Assembly (NCBI GenBank): GCA_029858425.1
Contig: JAOUFE010000006.1
Span: 1 to 37,803, forward strand
Source of the DNA: Spirochaetia bacterium
GTDB lineage: Bacteria; Spirochaetota; Leptospiria; Turneriellales; JAOUFE01
DNA: 37,803 nucleotides
Direction of reading: 5' to 3'
Shown here: one piece after another, positions 7,563 to 31,772 of the stretch
How the letters are laid out: the number at the start of each line of letters is the position of its first letter
Numbering within the stretch: the stretch's first letter is position 1
Made by a program: the position numbers and the translations under genes
The notes under the pieces: model-generated
What the model was told of the DNA's origin: nothing
The model's input: the letters and a program-made list of their open reading frames with translations, nothing else
Database searches by the model: none

Positions 7563-9056
7563 TCAATATTTTTTTTTAGAGCTGGATGGACTTTTTTTCC
7601 CTTGACCCTTCCAGGATTTGCTTTTTTGGCTAAATCCACCTTTTCCTGAAGACCCGCCCTTTCGAAAGGGTTTTCCTCCTCCGAAACTTCGATTACCTCC
7701 GGAGCGACTCTCATCGCGAGAATGTTTATCGGGAGCTTTGATGGAATGGCCATTTTTGTAAAAATCTAAAAAGGGCTTTAGCTCAATCGTTAAAAATCGT
7801 TGAATAATTTCATCTTTATCCAGATTTTCCAGTTTTTTATAAAATTCATTCATATGGGGGGAAAGATGTTTGTGATCAACTTCCAGGCCTTCAATGCGCC
7901 GGGCAAGACTGGCAATTCTGCTTTCTAAAATCTGGGATGCTTCGGGAATTGGGGCTTCGGTAAATTGTTGTTCAATAATTTTTTCGATGCGTTTTATTTT
8001 TCCAATATCCCGGGGGCTGATAATGGCAATAGAAGTTCCGGTCGCGTCCTTACGGCCAGTTCGCCCGCTTCTGTGAGTGTAAAGTTCCAGCTCTTCCGGC
8101 AAATTATAATGAATAATATGAGTTAGATTTGTAACATCCAGGCCTCGAGCGGCAACATCGGTTGCCACCAGAATTTGAAGATTTTTATGTCTAAATTTAC
8201 TCATGACACTTTCGCGTTGGGCATGGGAAAGATCTCCATGCAGAGCATCTACATCATATCCGTCTTTCATGAGCAAATCTGCCGTATCCTTGGTCTCATG
8301 CCGGGTTCTGCAGAAAATAATACCGTAAATATCCGCGTTTAAATCCAGAATTCTTTTTAAAATGGCATATTTGTCTTTAATATGCGCAAGGTAGTACATG
8401 TGTCGTATATTTTTTGACCCAACATTTTTTTTCCCAACTGTAATTTCCAGAGGGTCAACCATATAATCCATGGCAATATTGGCGATTTCTTTTGACATGG
8501 TTGCCGAAAACAACAATGTATTTTTTTGCTTTGGCGTTTCGCTTAATATGGAGTTTAAATCTTCCTGAAAACCCATATTGAGCATTTCATCGGCCTCATC
8601 AAGAACTACTGTTTTTATACCGCCAAGATCCACTTTTTTTCGTCGAATGATATCCTGCATTCTGCCTGGAGTTGCAACGATCAAATGGGTTCCTCTTTTT
8701 AGGCTTTTTATCTGACTGTCGATATTGGCGCCTCCGTAAATTGCGGTCAAATGAATTTCTGGCATATATTTGCAAAATTTTTCCAGCTCAGTTGCAATTT
8801 GAACACATAGTTCGCGAGTTGGACATAAAATTAAGTATTGAGGAGTTTTGCCATGAGGCTCGGCATTTTGCAAAAGAGGAATTCCAAATGCGGCAGTTTT
8901 TCCCGTTCCGGTTTGAGCAAGGGCTATTAAGTCGCGCTTATGCTCCAGCAAAAAGGGAATTGATTTTTCCTGGATGGGCGTGGCTTTTTCAAATCCCATC
9001 TCTTGAATTCCTTTCAATAATTTCGGATTGAGACCATAACTTTCAAATTTATTCAT
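7563..9056 (-). CDS. DEAD-box ATP-dependent RNA helicase
   Basis: A 497-residue helicase with all core motifs in order: Q motif region, AQTGTGKTAAFG, PTRELC, TPGR, DEAD, SAT, then domain 2 with ATDVAARGLD and HRSGRTGR. The tail after about residue 440 is rich in Gly, Ser, Lys and Arg (SGGNRSFGGGKPFRKGG), a low-complexity RNA-binding extension common in RhlE/DeaD-type proteins. It probably remodels RNA, for example in ribosome assembly or cold adaptation. ATG 9056 has AAGGA about seven bases upstream. First gene of the helicase-ttcA-nadC cluster. Confidence 0.93.
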   Translation of the reverse strand: MNKFESYGLNPKLLKGIQEMGFEKATPIQEKSIPFLLEHKRDLIALAQTGTGKTAAFGIPLLQNAEPHGKTPQYLILCPTRELCVQIATELEKFCKYMPEIHLTAIYGGANIDSQIKSLKRGTHLIVATPGRMQDIIRRKKVDLGGIKTVVLDEADEMLNMGFQEDLNSILSETPKQKNTLLFSATMSKEIANIAMDYMVDPLEITVGKKNVGSKNIRHMYYLAHIKDKYAILKRILDLNADIYGIIFCRTRHETKDTADLLMKDGYDVDALHGDLSHAQRESVMSKFRHKNLQILVATDVAARGLDVTNLTHIIHYNLPEELELYTHRSGRTGRKDATGTSIAIISPRDIGKIKRIEKIIEQQFTEAPIPEASQILESRIASLARRIEGLEVDHKHLSPHMNEFYKKLENLDKDEIIQRFLTIELKPFLDFYKNGHSIKAPDKHSRDESRSGGNRSFGGGKPFRKGGSSGKGGFSQKSKSWKGQGKKSPSSSKKKY

Positions 9057-9360
9057 ACATTGTTCCTTATTAGAATAGAAAAAAATCTCGCTTTATTTCC
9101 GGGATTTCCCTGTTCATTGCCAATTTTACATAAAAGGAGTTAGACAACTAATACGTTCATCCGGGATATTTTTTGTAGAACCAGAAAATATTGTTTTTCA
9201 ATATCGGAGCCATGCCATGAGCAGAAGAATTTTTCAACATTTATGATTTATAGACATATCAAATGATACATTCTATTGAATACATAAATAATGGAGATGT
9301 GGTGTCAAGTTAAATGCCCGGGGCTGCTAAGTAAATATTTTTATGTTTTTGAAATAAAGC

Positions 9361-9474
9361 GCCTGGACTGGACTCAAAAATTATTCCCATCAATGAGAAG
9401 TTTTTGCACGCTTCGCGCAGAAACTGCAAAATCCCGCTCGAATGGGTTGAATTTTAAGTTCATGCCTGAACTCT
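9361..9474. repeat. Dispersed palindromic repeat, copy 1 (divergent)
   Basis: An imperfect palindrome whose arms share the outer motif of the other copies (GGACTCAAAAATTATTCCCAT on the left against rc GCATGAACTTAAAATTCAAC on the right). The centre GCACGCTTCGCGCAG is the GCGCGAAGCGC-type loop read from the other strand. It is the most divergent member of the family. No transposase frame lies inside or beside it. Confidence 0.55.
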
Positions 9475-9544
9475 AAACTTGGCCGTTAAAAGCAGATAAT
9501 CCCATTTAAGGACATTGTCAGCCTCCAGGCCAAAGGCTAAATGA

Positions 9545-9654
9545 TTTAAATTAGTGCGTTTTTGGGGCGCTTCGCGTCCCAAAAACGCGCATTTTAATAC
9601 ATTTTGATCTGACTATTGAGGTTCATGCCCAAGCTCAAGGCTAAATGATAATTT
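9545..9654. repeat. Dispersed palindromic repeat, copy 2 (left arm partly lost)
   Basis: The inner stem GTGCG(TTTTTGGG)/(CCCAAAAA)CGCGC and right arm ATTTTAATACATTTTGATCTGAC...GGTTCATGCCCAAGCTC match the copy at 31984-32111 closely. The left outer arm has been replaced. A 13-base direct repeat AAGGCTAAATGAT at 9533-9545 and 9637-9649 brackets what remains, which could mark a rearrangement or insertion. Confidence 0.65.
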
Positions 9655-9764
9655 TTATGGATTTATTCAAAAAATATCGACAACTTATCGAATATTATAT
9701 TATATGTAGAATTAGAAGATGTATAAATACATTGTTCAAGTCTAAAGGGAATTGAGGTAAAAAT

Positions 9765-10052
9765 ATGAACGTAGTATCTTTTTGTAAAAAAGTAGATTAT
9801 AGCGAGTTTTTGGATAATCATGTATTTCAGGTATTGGAACAGGATATTCAGGATTTAAATAATCCGGAATATCCTCTTCAGGTAATCATTGCAGATGACC
9901 ATGATATAATTGAATCCTTGAGGAAAAAGTTTAAACAGGATTTGCTGTTACTGATCCCATTGATTGGTTTGTTAGGAAAAAATTTATCTTATTCGGCCAT
10001 TCATAACTGCATTGCATCCGGAGCTACTATTCTGGTGGTTAGAATACTTTGA
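9765..10052 (+). CDS. Hypothetical 95-residue protein with a faint receiver-like pattern
   Basis: A 95-residue protein with a plausible ribosome-binding site (GAGG, about eight bases before ATG). I do not recognise a family. The string VIIADDHDIIESL recalls the first strand and acidic pair of response-regulator receivers. The C-terminal LLLLIPLIGLLG...AIHNCIASGATILVV recalls the last strand-helix-strand of that fold. The segment between is about 20 residues too short to hold the usual phospho-Asp strand. It may be a degenerate or internally deleted receiver, or unrelated. It starts a small cluster with the gene at 10099. Confidence 0.5.
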   Translation: MNVVSFCKKVDYSEFLDNHVFQVLEQDIQDLNNPEYPLQVIIADDHDIIESLRKKFKQDLLLLIPLIGLLGKNLSYSAIHNCIASGATILVVRIL

Positions 10053-10098
10053 AAAACACTCCATAAAAAGTTCAAAATTCAAATTTATATGAGGTTTT

Positions 10099-10308
10099 AT
10101 GAAATGGAATAACCTGATGGCGGATACATGGATCTTTATTGGGCAAAGCGCTCTCAATTTTTTTAAATATGAAAATCTATATATTAAAAAAGAAATACAT
10201 CAAAACAGGAATCAAAAACTTTTTGGTGAGGCCAGTAACATAAAATTAAAAATAATAGATACTTCTCCTGTTCGCAGGATTAAAGTTTATATTAAAAATG
10301 ACCCATAA
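10099..10308 (+). CDS. Hypothetical 69-residue protein
   Basis: A short basic protein (MKWNNLMADTWIF...), not recognised. ATG 10099 is preceded by GAGG at a slightly short four-base spacing. It lies 46 bases after the previous small gene and overlaps the start of the next short frame at 10298, so the three could be one transcript. No signal peptide and no clear motif. Confidence 0.4.
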   Translation: MKWNNLMADTWIFIGQSALNFFKYENLYIKKEIHQNRNQKLFGEASNIKLKIIDTSPVRRIKVYIKNDP

Positions 10309-10426
10309 TAAATATGTTTCAATTGTATTTATTCTCATTGGGTTATTTTCAGCTTTATCCGTCCAGAAACTCAAAATATTTGTCAGGCTTCTGTGGGAAC
10401 TTTATCAGGTTCCCACAGGGAGGTGA
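10298..10426 (+). CDS. Possible truncated 42-residue secreted or membrane peptide
   Basis: A frame starting at an ATG that overlaps the previous gene's end by 11 bases. The first 23 residues read as a signal peptide or membrane anchor (MTHNKYVSIVFILIGLFSAL). The frame then runs into the structured element that begins near 10380 and stops. This looks like the N-terminus of an exported protein cut off by that element, though a genuine tiny membrane peptide cannot be excluded. Confidence 0.3.
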   Translation: MTHNKYVSIVFILIGLFSALSVQKLKIFVRLLWELYQVPTGR

Positions 10427-10440
10427 CAATCTTTTTTCTT
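10380..10440 (+). terminator. Long hairpin followed by a T-rich run
   Basis: CTGTGGGAAC (10391-10400) pairs perfectly with GTTCCCACAG (10409-10418). An outer TTGTCA (10380-10385) pairs with TGACAA (10424-10429) across a five-base internal loop, and TCTTTTTTCTT follows. It has the form of a Rho-independent terminator for the small genes at 9765-10426, but it is also the left end of the structured element. Confidence 0.45.
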
Positions 10441-10639
10441 CCGATTGATTTAAGAAATCCTGAATTACAGGGTTTACCAATGCACTCCGTTTGTTTCTTC
10501 CCGACGAGGACAACGCGCTTTGCGCTCAGAACCTTCGCCCTGCGGGCTCGGTTGCGAACCGATGCCACTTGCATATTCGCGATCCCTATTACGGCTCTGC
10601 CTTGTCCCAGGTTGAAATACCGATCAGATATATAAAACA

Positions 10640-10663
10640 AAAGCCCGCAAGCGCGGGCTTTTT
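10640..10663 (+). terminator. Rho-independent terminator
   Basis: AAAGCCCGC (10640-10648), loop AAGC, GCGGGCTTT (10653-10661), then a run of T. A strong nine-pair stem with a classic T-tract on the rightward strand. It closes the structured element. Confidence 0.7.
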
Positions 10664-10664
10664 A

Positions 10665-11008
10665 GGATGCTCCAACAAAAAGACGAAATCCGAACCGTTA
10701 TTCAGGGAATTATTGTAGAAGTTTGGGAGTCGTTGGCAGCCTGAAACTGGAAAATATCCCAAAATCATATAAATTAAATAGCGATTTTAATCAAAATTGA
10801 ATGAAAATAATTCATAATTAATTCAAAAATATTAAAATATATATGGAATAAAATCCATTGAATATTAAATGAGTGATAATTAAAACCGGGTATCGAATTA
10901 TTTACGCCATATCACAGCTTTAAAGCGACTACGATTTAACTTCTCCGGTCTGCAAAAAAGATTATTGAGGTAGCATGAAACCGTTTAAAACATCATTTAA
11001 CGCTAAAA
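10665..11008. other. AT-rich intergenic stretch
   Basis: Very AT-rich from about 10750 to 10900. A 25-codon frame beginning MLQQKDEIRTV follows the terminator but has no ribosome-binding site and could be a gene fragment. Nothing else can be supported. Confidence 0.4.
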
Positions 11009-11299
11009 TTAAGTATTTTGACTTGTAACCGCAATTTGAATCATTAATTTGCATTTTCTGGTCACAATAATGCAAACATTCACAGACCCAAGAATATACA
11101 AACACTCGACTTCGAGTGTTTGTAACCTATCTGATAGGTGATTGCAGGTATATTTACATGAATGTAACCAGAGATTAATCAGGTAGATTACAAAACCCTG
11201 CTTTTCTAAAAAGTTTTCGATAACTGTGTAATTCATTTGAAGTCCTTTAGAAGCAATGCGCATAATTTGCGCACTTTTTTCTTGACTTTCGGTCTCCAT
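11009..11299 (-). CDS. Doubtful 96-residue reading frame over hairpins
   Basis: The first 38 residues (METESQEKSAQIMRIASKGL...) read like ordinary protein, and the ATG is divergent from the ribbon-helix-helix gene. The rest is Cys-rich and covers three adjacent hairpins: an 11-pair stem at 11099-11122, ACCTAT/ATAGGT at 11125-11139, and TTACAT/ATGTAA at 11154-11167. Coding in that part is therefore doubtful. No ribosome-binding site. It could be a truncated gene or chance. Confidence 0.2.
   Translation of the reverse strand: METESQEKSAQIMRIASKGLQMNYTVIENFLEKQGFVIYLINLWLHSCKYTCNHLSDRLQTLEVECLYILGSVNVCIIVTRKCKLMIQIAVTSQNT
11257..11273. promoter_or_regulatory. Operator-like pair of TGCGCA palindromes
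   Basis: Two identical six-base palindromes TGCGCA separated by TAATT, centre to centre 11 bp (one helical turn), eight bases upstream of the -35 box of the ribbon-helix-helix gene. Such paired sites on one DNA face are typical operators of ribbon-helix-helix autoregulators. The link is inferred from position. Confidence 0.45.
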
Positions 11300-11316
11300 T
11301 TCGTTATATTGAACAT
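11282..11316 (+). promoter_or_regulatory. Sigma-70 type promoter placing +1 at the start codon
   Basis: TTGACT (11282-11287), exactly 17 bases, TATATT (11305-11310). The ATG begins 7 bases after the -10 box, so transcription should start at or next to the A of ATG. No ribosome-binding site exists or could exist on such a leaderless message. Confidence 0.65.
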
Positions 11317-11529
11317 ATGGAAAAAAAGGTAAGTTTTAAAATAGACTCTGAAAAGCTGGATGAATTAAAATCAATCACCGGTATTTCTCAAAGTCAGGAA
11401 TTATTAAATGAAGCAGTAACCTTATTGGTATGGGCTGTAAATGAACGAAAGAAAAAGCATATCGTAGGTTCATTTGACGAAAAAAAGAATACATACAAAG
11501 AAGTAGTTTTACCGGCGTTAATGCAATAA
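11317..11529 (+). CDS. Ribbon-helix-helix type small protein, antitoxin-like
   Basis: A 70-residue protein with the pattern of a ribbon-helix-helix DNA-binding dimer: a basic strand (KKVSFKID), helix A (EKLDELKSITG), a turn, and helix B (SQSQELLNEAVTLLVWAVNERKKK). It ends in a charged extension. Such proteins are often antitoxins or autoregulators. The strong promoter, upstream palindrome pair and a tightly following gene (10 bases) fit a toxin-antitoxin-like or regulator-partner pair, but the partner is frameshifted and not recognised. Family assignment rests on the pattern only. Confidence 0.6.
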   Translation: MEKKVSFKIDSEKLDELKSITGISQSQELLNEAVTLLVWAVNERKKKHIVGSFDEKKNTYKEVVLPALMQ

Positions 11530-11539
11530 AAGGTCTTTA

Positions 11540-11964
11540 ATGCCACCGAGACCAAAAAAGGAAACCGTCCAACTAACGACAAATCAATATTTAAAAACCT
11601 GTCTTCACCAACCGCTCAAACGATTTTAGCGGCAATTGATCGGGAAATATTACAATCGAACCGGGAACATCAGCTATCGCATCAAGTAAGCAATCTACCT
11701 CCATTTGAGACTTATGTAAGCGAATTGGAAGATGCTCTTGTGTGGTGGTTGCAACCTGATGCAGCAAAACAGAAACTTCAACCGTATCCAGGTGCAGAAG
11801 GAGAATTAGTAAAACAAGTTTTATTTCCAACAATAAATTGGAAAACGGGCCAGACTCCTTTGGATATAAAAGCGCATATAAAAGCGCTTATTTATGCTTG
11901 CATTTGCAGCCAATTATTTTTTTTATGGATATGTGGACGCAAACCGATACGTCTTATATATTAG
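11540..11964 (+). pseudogene. Frameshifted partner gene of the ribbon-helix-helix gene
   Basis: ATG 11540 (AAGG eight bases upstream) opens MPPRPKKETVQLTTNQYLKT and stops at TAG 11627 after 29 codons. The neighbouring frame is open from before that point to 11964 and reads like real protein (PPFETYVSELEDALVWWLQP, INWKTGQTPLD). Restoring one T in the TTTT run at 11624-11627 joins both into about 141 residues. The last 20 residues look less natural. I do not recognise the family. Single-base loss is the simplest reading; programmed frameshifting is less likely because no slippery heptamer is present. Confidence 0.5.
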
Positions 11965-12009
11965 AGTTGTATTGACTAAAAAAAACAATACTCGAAAAAG
12001 GTTATAAAA

Positions 12010-29469: not shown

Positions 29470-31089
29470 TTATTCGATGGATTCAGGTAAAATAATTGTA
29501 TCCATCCTGGAATCTTCTCTGTGTTCCGGCGCTTCCAAAAGAAAATGTAATCCGCGACTTTCGTCTCTTTCAAGGCAAGAACGGATAATTAATCTGGCGC
29601 AAAGTATAATGTTGCGAAGCTCAAGTATTTCACGGGTGAGTCGGGCACGCTGGTAATAATCGTTCACATCTTCTTGAATAATATCCATAATTTTCAGGGC
29701 GCGATCCAGCCGGGGTTTTGACCTTACAATGCCTATATAATCCCACATAATATCCTGAATTTCCCTTCGCAGATGATTGATGATTCCCCACTCCTGAACA
29801 TGCACAGTTTCCTTATTGTTCCAGGGAGGAATTTTCCCAAAAGCATCCCGGTCGTTTCTTTTGGCGTCATATCTGTGAACAATATCCTGAACAGCCCGGT
29901 AACTAAAGACCAGAGATTCAAGAAGCGAGTTTGACGCAAGCCTGTTTGCCCCATGCACGCCGGTAGAAGCAGTTTCACCTGCTGCATATAGGTATTTTAT
30001 GTTGGTCAGGCCATTGTAGTCGGTTAGAACTCCACCACAAAGATAATGGGCGGCTGGTACAACAGGTATGAGATCTTGTGCGGCATCCAAATGATATTTG
30101 GACTTAAGAGTTTCATAAATATAGGGAAAACGATCAGCCATTTTTTGTTGTCCAATAGAGCGGCAATCCAGATAAACAAATTTGTCACCGTGTTTTTTTA
30201 ATTCAGAATCAATAGACCGGGCTACTATATCTCGCGGAGCCAGTTCTTCCATGGGATGATAGTTTTTCATAAAATATTCCCCTTGTTTGTTTATCAATTT
30301 TGCTCCTTCACCCCGGATAGCCTCCGATAAAAGAAAAGCAGGATCAGAGTCAAAATAAAGTACTGTAGGGTGAAATTGAATAAACTCCAGGTTGCGGATA
30401 TTACAGCCGGCGCGATAAGCCATGGCGACTCCATCTCCCGTACATTCGGAGGGGTTTGTGGAAAACGGATAGACTCTACCTGCTCCGCCAGTAGCAATTA
30501 AGGTGAAGTTTGCCAGAATAGTACAAATTTCGTTTGTTTTCGTATCTAATGCATATATGCCATAGCAATTTTCAATTTTTTCCCTATTATTACGATTCAT
30601 ATGATGCTCTGTTATTAAATCAACAGCCATCTGGTTTTCCATTAGTTTTATATTGTTGTTTTTGGCTATCTTTTCAAGAAGAAAATTCTGGATGTTTTTA
30701 CCTGTCTGGTCTAAAAAGTGTATGATACGTTTATCGGAATGTCCTCCTTCCATTCCGAGATCCAGGTTACCGAGTTCATCTTTGGTAAACAGAATTCCCA
30801 TATTCAGGAGGTCATGAATTCTTTCAATGCCATCATTTACCAGAATTTCTACTGATTTCTCATCACACAAACCGGCTCCCGCATTTAAGGTGTCCTTCAT
30901 GTGCTTTTCAGGAGAGTCCCCTTCTCCAATTGAAACGGCCACTCCTCCTTGTGCAAATCTTGTTGATCCCGACAGAGAATTGTCCTTGGTAATTATGATT
31001 ACTTTACCATACTCGGCAGCTTTGAGGGCAAAATATAAACCGGATATACCAGATCCAATAACCAGAAAGTCACAGCGATCTGATTTCAT
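29470..31089 (-). CDS. nadB: L-aspartate oxidase
   Basis: A 539-residue FAD enzyme oxidising aspartate to iminoaspartate, the first step of de novo NAD synthesis. The FAD motif is DFLVIGSGISGLYFALKAAEYG. Then come STRFAQGGVAVSIG, GGHSDKRIIHF, ATGGAGRVYPFSTNP, EFIQFHPTVLY and CGGVLTDYNG...GETASTGVHGANRLASNSLLE. The helical C-terminal domain is complete. SGSTRFAQGG and HFLDQTGKNIQN separate it from succinate dehydrogenase flavoproteins. It starts 11 bases after the receiver gene's stop without its own ribosome-binding site, so translation is probably coupled. Confidence 0.95.
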   Translation of the reverse strand: MKSDRCDFLVIGSGISGLYFALKAAEYGKVIIITKDNSLSGSTRFAQGGVAVSIGEGDSPEKHMKDTLNAGAGLCDEKSVEILVNDGIERIHDLLNMGILFTKDELGNLDLGMEGGHSDKRIIHFLDQTGKNIQNFLLEKIAKNNNIKLMENQMAVDLITEHHMNRNNREKIENCYGIYALDTKTNEICTILANFTLIATGGAGRVYPFSTNPSECTGDGVAMAYRAGCNIRNLEFIQFHPTVLYFDSDPAFLLSEAIRGEGAKLINKQGEYFMKNYHPMEELAPRDIVARSIDSELKKHGDKFVYLDCRSIGQQKMADRFPYIYETLKSKYHLDAAQDLIPVVPAAHYLCGGVLTDYNGLTNIKYLYAAGETASTGVHGANRLASNSLLESLVFSYRAVQDIVHRYDAKRNDRDAFGKIPPWNNKETVHVQEWGIINHLRREIQDIMWDYIGIVRSKPRLDRALKIMDIIQEDVNDYYQRARLTREILELRNIILCARLIIRSCLERDESRGLHFLLEAPEHREDSRMDTIILPESIE

Positions 31090-31100
31090 TGGCGTTATGT

Positions 31101-31772
31101 TTAAGAATCAGCCTTTTTTTTGCTTTTGCTGATTTTTTTAACAGGTTTTTTAATGGGAGTTGATTTCTTTGTAGTTTTTGAAGTTGTGGTTAATGAACGA
31201 GAACGTTTTTTTGTTTCTACACCGGGAGCTCGTGTTTTGATTCCATATTTTTTTATGAGTTCTCCAATTTCCTGTTCTTTTTGCTTTAAGGAGTTAAGAT
31301 GCTCATAAACCATCTTCATGAGTTGATCTTTTTTCACAGGCTTCTCCGCAAATGAGATTTTCAATTTCTTTGCCAAAGCCTCTACGCGCTGCGCATCGCT
31401 GCTTAACAGGATAAAATTTTTTTCGCTCCATTCTTTTCGGTTTCTTAAAATTTCCTGTATAAAATGAGTGCCTTTCAGGCTGGGTTCGGCGTCATATTCC
31501 AAAAATACAAGCGCATATCCATCTGGATTTATTAATGAGCCGTTTAATTCAGGAAGGCCAGGATTTGATTTTCCATTGCTTTTGGTTATGGTGTCATGGT
31601 AACGTAATACTTCATTTACATTGAGCTGATTCAGGTAACACCCATTTTTGAGAATCATTTCCCGGGCATCTGAAAATTTGTAAAATGAATCAATTTGCAA
31701 TCGAAAAGGTTTCAACGCATTTTTCAGAAGATCAATAAAACTGTGATTGTCGTCAATAATTAATGCTTTCAT
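31101..31772 (-). CDS. Divergent receiver protein with histone-H1-like basic tail
   Basis: A 223-residue protein. Residues 1-160 follow a response-regulator receiver: ALIIDDN (Asp7, Asp8), FILLSSDA (Ser124/125 at the Thr/Ser position) and FAEKPVKK (Lys144, the switch lysine). At the end of the third strand (ALVFLEYDAEP) the usual phospho-Asp is Glu92, with Asp94 two residues later. An extra 20 or so residues separate helix 1 from that strand. Residues about 178-223 are Lys/Ser/Thr/Arg-rich (KKRSRSLTTTSKTTKKS, KKPVKKISKSKKK). There is no standard output domain. DNA binding through the tail is inferred. It precedes nadB by 11 bases. Confidence 0.8.
   Translation of the reverse strand: MKALIIDDNHSFIDLLKNALKPFRLQIDSFYKFSDAREMILKNGCYLNQLNVNEVLRYHDTITKSNGKSNPGLPELNGSLINPDGYALVFLEYDAEPSLKGTHFIQEILRNRKEWSEKNFILLSSDAQRVEALAKKLKISFAEKPVKKDQLMKMVYEHLNSLKQKEQEIGELIKKYGIKTRAPGVETKKRSRSLTTTSKTTKKSTPIKKPVKKISKSKKKADS

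Follow-up and report, generated by a model that had tools for sequence, protein, structure and literature searches.

An order-restricted orphan pseudo-receiver family with glutamate in the phospho-aspartate column and a lysine-rich tail

How pseudo-receivers of bacteria are switched was regarded as an open question in a 2025 review (PMC12632262). The question also arises for a gene in the window, i.e. the whole stretch of 37,803 nucleotides of spirochaete DNA analysed here, since its product and the relatives described below combine an invariant Glu with an otherwise intact pocket and possess no folded output domain, which makes them a clean case for asking whether a natural Glu is a phosphomimetic. 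The gene consists of one open reading frame of 223 amino acids, which fills positions 31101..31772 of the minus strand (start codon ATG at 31772, stop codon 31103-31101). A first-pass annotation had described a receiver with Glu92 at the phospho-acceptor place, and the residues on which it relied (D7/D8, S124/S125, K144 and the motif FLEYD with E92 and D94) were all recovered in the translation. The features discussed are the following:

31101..31772, minus strand: entire gene for a 223-aa pseudo-receiver of the aspartate-less (Glu) kind, carrying an insertion and a Lys-rich tail
31746..31754, minus strand: Asp7-Asp8-Asn9, acidic pair (DD1 = D/E, DD2 = invariant Asp) and start of the invariant D-N-H-S motif
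31521..31637, minus strand: inserted segment, residues 46-84, at the junction of helix 2 and strand 3 (in the model a helix, 49-64, and loops)
31497..31499, minus strand: Glu92, at the very end of strand 3 and in the phospho-Asp column (Glu in 18/18)
31491..31493, minus strand: Asp94, position D+2, outside the acceptor column (Asp in 7/18, Asn in 11/18)
31485..31487, minus strand: Glu96, likewise an invariant Glu (18/18), situated in the loop that follows strand 3
31398..31403, minus strand: Ser124-Ser125, Thr/Ser switch position and T+1
31341..31343, minus strand: Lys144, active-site Lys kept in 17/17, and after it the likewise invariant Pro145
31245..31331, minus strand: long helix 5, residues 148-176, extending past the receiver core in the AlphaFold2 models
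31104..31241, minus strand: C-terminal tail rich in Lys/Arg and disordered (pLDDT ~40), residues 178-223, net charge +15
29470..31089, minus strand: nadB (L-aspartate oxidase, TIGR00551), adjoining downstream after an 11-bp gap

Receiver fold and the place of Glu92

Pfam Response_reg was matched with 22.3 bits (E 1.6e-4) over residues 4-42 only, below the cut-off of 30.2, and at E<=0.1 it was found in 7 of 17 family members; the sub-threshold score most likely results from the 31-65 inserted residues by which the domain is split. A phmmer search of the protein against PDB sequences gave no match, and weak Pfam matches to SpoU_sub_bind, RlmN, ValRS and TFIIF-alpha were read as tail composition or chance. 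Structure prediction, which the first-pass annotation had proposed for placing Glu92 and Asp94, confidently yielded a CheY-like (beta/alpha)5 fold with a mean pLDDT of ~95 over residues 1-60 and 81-170 (AlphaFold2; input alignment of the window protein and four orthologues, five sequences). The elements are beta1 (2-6), alpha1 (10-19), beta2 (26-30), alpha2 (33-43), an extra helix (49-64), beta3 (86-92), alpha3 (101-111), beta4 (120-124), alpha4 (127-136), beta5 (140-143) and alpha5 (148-176). An identical architecture was predicted for an orthologue of 33% identity, again from a five-sequence alignment. Foldseek against the PDB returned 105 matches at E<=0.001, and the best 50 of these 105 were all receivers or receiver-containing proteins. 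Judged by its modelled fold, the protein belongs to the receiver (REC, PF00072) superfamily.

The residue that closes strand 3 is Glu92 in the first model and its equivalent, Glu110, in the second. The same assignment was obtained when a profile of 17 family members was aligned with a profile of 16 canonical receivers, all 16 from the same genome (hhalign, E 4.5e-7, probability 92.6%): Glu92 lies opposite the invariant Asp of receivers, and the conserved Gly is preceded by one additional residue. Glu occupies this column in 18/18 orthologues, so that the Asp which ends strand 3 in a phosphorylatable receiver is absent throughout, and the protein fits the definition of a pseudo-receiver or aspartate-less receiver as a receiver fold without phospho-accepting Asp (PMC12632262, PMC4395418). 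The earlier suggestion that Asp94 might serve as acceptor instead had to be abandoned, since this residue falls into column D+2 and is replaced by Asn in 11 of the 18 orthologues. As far as alignment columns and the strand boundaries of the models show, neither a placement of Asp94 in the acidic pocket nor orthologues with normal Asp and no tail were encountered, the two observations named beforehand as speaking against the first description.

The remaining parts of a phosphorylatable receiver, i.e. acidic pair, Thr/Ser and Lys, are present. DD1 is Asp or Glu and DD2 is Asp in 18/18, the equivalent of Lys144 is kept in 17/17, and the switch position holds Thr or Ser in 14/17 (Ala in two, Gly in one). 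The aromatic residue at K-3, on which Y-T coupling depends, is kept in two and lost in 15 of 17. At K+2, 16/17 members have Leu, Val or Ile, residues which bias CheY towards active forms (PMC12632262). Going by these columns, the pocket of the family is nearly intact and is accompanied by features that would favour a phosphate-independent state. As about 80% of pseudo-receivers are non-acidic at DD2 (PMC12632262), the invariant Asp is unusual among them and hints that the pocket may still bind a metal or ligand. It is plausible that Glu92 acts as a phosphomimetic; Glu at D together with Leu/Val/Ile at K+2 are, however, permissive features only for the constitutive (phosphomimetic) class. A natural Glu need not be phosphomimetic either, since replacement of the corresponding Glu in ChxR did not abolish DNA binding (PMC4395418).

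The inserted segment and the basic tail

The insertion which had been noticed before strand 3 is a family trait: it lies between helix 2 and strand 3, comprises 39 residues here and 31-65 across the orthologues, is partly helical and is poorly conserved (mean pairwise identity 20%).

The last 45 residues contain 17 K/R and 2 D/E, resulting in a net charge of +15. The C-terminus of the window protein is the most basic in a set of 263 proteins (length >=120 aa) from the genomic contexts analysed, in which family members hold eight of the top 12 places; in the other open reading frames of the window (24 ORFs, 9,808 residues) no 46-aa stretch reaches +15. Tails of the orthologues are 28-77 residues long with 25-39% K/R, conserved in composition and not in sequence. 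All 17 orthologues with a complete C-terminus possess a basic tail, although two of these (G003 and G009) are short, with 25% K/R and many acidic residues, and nearly neutral. The survey of orthologues that had been called for thus bore out both traits, Glu and tail. Of the supposed likeness to histone H1, the basic, Lys-rich and disordered C-terminal region (pLDDT ~40) was confirmed, whereas the resemblance itself concerns composition only, since it is composition rather than sequence which is conserved. Nucleic-acid binding by such a tail is plausible from its composition: the basic H1-like tails of AlgP and PhaF are thought to bind DNA, and for AlgP the Lys-rich tail was linked to DNA binding, while the protein associates with polyphosphate granules, for the spacing of which the tail is needed (PMC9239181).

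Two further observations concern basic tails. Those of seven genomes of the Turneriella genus, g7 (G007, G008, G010, G012, G013, G015, G016), share the motif KGLRDLLKINR and variants of it amid low complexity, possibly an amphipathic helix or a partner-binding motif. The C-terminal tail of a DEAD-box RNA helicase encoded in the window (7563-9056, minus strand) is likewise basic and rich in Gly, Lys and Ser, with net +13 in the last 45 residues.

Distribution and genomic neighbourhood

A profile search covering 48 genomes of the class and 296 of the phylum found one orthologue per genome in all 18 sampled genomes of the order, including Turneriella parva, and none in the 278 other spirochaete genomes sampled, 30 of them of the same class. 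One of the 18 orthologues is interrupted by a contig end, and C-terminal counts therefore refer to 17. Two weak additional matches (E 2.8e-5 and 3.7e-4) did not extend the family, as they are partial and in members of the order, one of them being an ordinary receiver. When 84,980 genomes of bacteria and archaea were scanned for the window protein, in a search which reaches close relatives only, five genomes were hit, including three Spirochaetia MAGs and one Leptospiraceae. Synonymous changes in the family are saturated and dN/dS is unusable. The features are not due to chance, since orthologues as low as 22% in identity retain them. As far as these searches extend, the family is real, previously undescribed and restricted to the order. 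It is new but of a known kind, since Glu is already the commonest natural substitution in aspartate-less receivers (26%; PMC12632262, PMC4395418).

The neighbouring gene had been correctly recognised as nadB (TIGR00551, 543 bits, cut-off 453). It lies 11 bp downstream on the same strand, and because of this spacing both genes are probably co-transcribed. With short gaps or overlap, nadB adjoins downstream on the same strand in nine of the 17 genomes in which the family gene is complete, from seven genera and four families (G000, G001, G002, G003, G004, G006, G009, G011, G014). It does not adjoin in G005 and the seven genomes of the Turneriella genus, most of which have nadB elsewhere, and hence this neighbourhood is not required for function. 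Gene order indicates that the linkage is old within the order, not universal, and that it was broken or gained on one or more occasions; co-expression is thereby suggested rather than an obligate tie to NAD synthesis. In other families of the class (L094-L108) the gene directly before nadB encodes an S41-type (Ctp-like) peptidase, and in most cases the two genes overlap or almost do; this peptidase-like protein, recognised by eye, was considered as a hidden counterpart and is unrelated. A search of the literature for nadB and a response regulator in spirochetes yielded nothing, and no kinase gene was seen to recur beside the family gene in the neighbourhoods of the sampled orthologues. Upstream of the gene ~0.5 kb are followed by two tRNA genes on the opposite strand; an NAD riboswitch or other RNA was looked for there, and the window holds these two tRNAs and no other known RNA element.

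Elsewhere in the window, between the DEAD-box helicase gene and a clpC-like gene, ~2.9 kb (9057-12009) are devoid of any ORF >96 aa lying wholly inside. A small ORF at 9765-10052 contains IIADDHDIIESL and resembles the start of a decayed response-regulator gene, with no match to the Pfam receiver model.

Possible modes of action and known counterparts

The reading we prefer, tentatively and at somewhat less than an even chance, is that of an order-specific orphan pseudo-receiver which serves as a Glu-locked, constitutive docking or dimerisation module with its tail on a polyanion. Phosphotransfer to Asp would not switch the protein; instead, Glu92 reaching towards Lys144 would lock the domain in one fixed conformation, and the locked domain would dock or dimerise via the surface of helix 5 or the insertion. 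Through electrostatic attraction the basic tail would anchor the protein to a polyanion, with nucleic acid as the likeliest candidate, and activity would depend on partners and on the expression level (often through co-transcription with nadB) instead of on a histidine kinase. While fold, Glu column, conservation, insertion and disorder of the tail were obtained computationally, we infer locking, docking and polyanion binding from them. A conserved docking face is not obvious, since helix-5 and insertion sequences vary (~20% identity), and it counts against the polyanion anchor that the tail is unconserved beyond its composition and nearly neutral in two genomes.

Gating by a metal or small ligand is the main rival and would better account for the invariant DD2, Glu92, Glu96 and Lys144. 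D7/D8, E92, E96 and K144 would bind a divalent metal or a metabolite, and the protein would be ligand-gated, not permanently on. A mere scaffold would not need DD2, Glu92 and Glu96 in 18/18 and Lys in 17/17 despite the divergence of the family, and both constitutive (PMC12632262, PMC4395418) and ligand-gated pseudo-receivers (PMC12632262) are known. However, the ligand sites described for pseudo-receivers lie mostly on surfaces other than the acidic pocket (PMC12632262), no ligand or partner gene is indicated, and the nadB linkage is absent in Turneriella. We regard this explanation as rather unlikely. Somewhat less credit is given to a tail directed at polyphosphate granules, ribosomes or RNA instead of DNA, by which the protein would be a granule- or ribosome-associated factor; the precedent of AlgP at polyphosphate granules (PMC9239181) speaks for it and composition without conserved sequence would suit any polyanion, but the neighbourhood contains no pointer to polyphosphate or ribosome genes. 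Equally unlikely in our estimation is a core, order-defining regulator in which the intact metal pocket with Glu for Asp, preserved for as long as the order has existed, would have become a phosphorylation-independent, ligand- or metal-gated switch of a polyanion-binding arm, with neither kinase nor folded output domain.

A dedicated regulator of NAD biosynthesis, acting on nadB or its enzyme, could be expected from a gene directly upstream of nadB in nine of 17 genomes from seven genera and four families, but it becomes quite improbable in view of the unlinked genes in G005 and the Turneriella genus, the S41-peptidase-like gene before nadB in other families of the class and the window's lack of known RNA elements besides tRNA. 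Hardly to be expected is a working response regulator still phosphorylated on Asp94 or Glu92: D8, K144 and T/S are retained in most members and Asp94 exists in the window protein, yet position 94 is mostly Asn and belongs to column D+2, the K-3 aromatic is largely lost, no recurring kinase gene adjoins, and no phospho-Glu is known in bacterial signalling (PMC4395418).

The locked-module reading and its main rival concern a family that may provide a molecular signature of the order including Turneriella, and it has a cultured host, since a member is carried by Turneriella parva, a cultured, free-living species (PMC3746428).

Several known systems share single traits with the window protein. AlgP, PhaF and other H1-like bacterial proteins resemble it in the composition of the C-terminal tail, but the window protein has a different N-terminal domain, no KPAA repeats and a much shorter tail. 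A CheY-like receiver of the same genome (G000:C64:11594), which the family profile matches best outside the family itself (E 2.8e-5 over 37 positions), starts with IIDDSHS, compared with IIDDNHS in the family, but it has the phospho-Asp (LIFLDIEMPGWNG) and neither insertion nor tail. This receiver (G000:C64:11594-11944) and a second stand-alone canonical one (G000:C208:4197-4547) start with IIDDSHSM and IIDDSRSM, respectively, near the IIDDNHSF of the family; when an origin of the family from the G000:C64 receiver was considered, only the same genus yielded close relatives of these stand-alone receivers. Among orphan regulators of the OmpR family, the atypical CosR and HP1043 likewise have an atypical receiver, and CosR (8uvk) is among the lowest-rmsd PDB matches listed (2.0 A over 161 alignment columns, 19% identity). 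Both possess a winged-helix DNA-binding domain, in place of which the window protein carries a disordered tail only. The closest likeness in kind is to aspartate-less receivers of the Glu subtype (PF00072 ALR/PsR), e.g. ChxR of Chlamydia, with which the family shares the CheY-like fold, Glu in the phospho-Asp column, reduced Y-T coupling and the lack of a recurring kinase gene next to it. Unlike these, it keeps the acidic pair and Lys, stays sub-threshold for Pfam Response_reg and combines a helical insertion and a disordered basic tail with the absence of a folded output domain.
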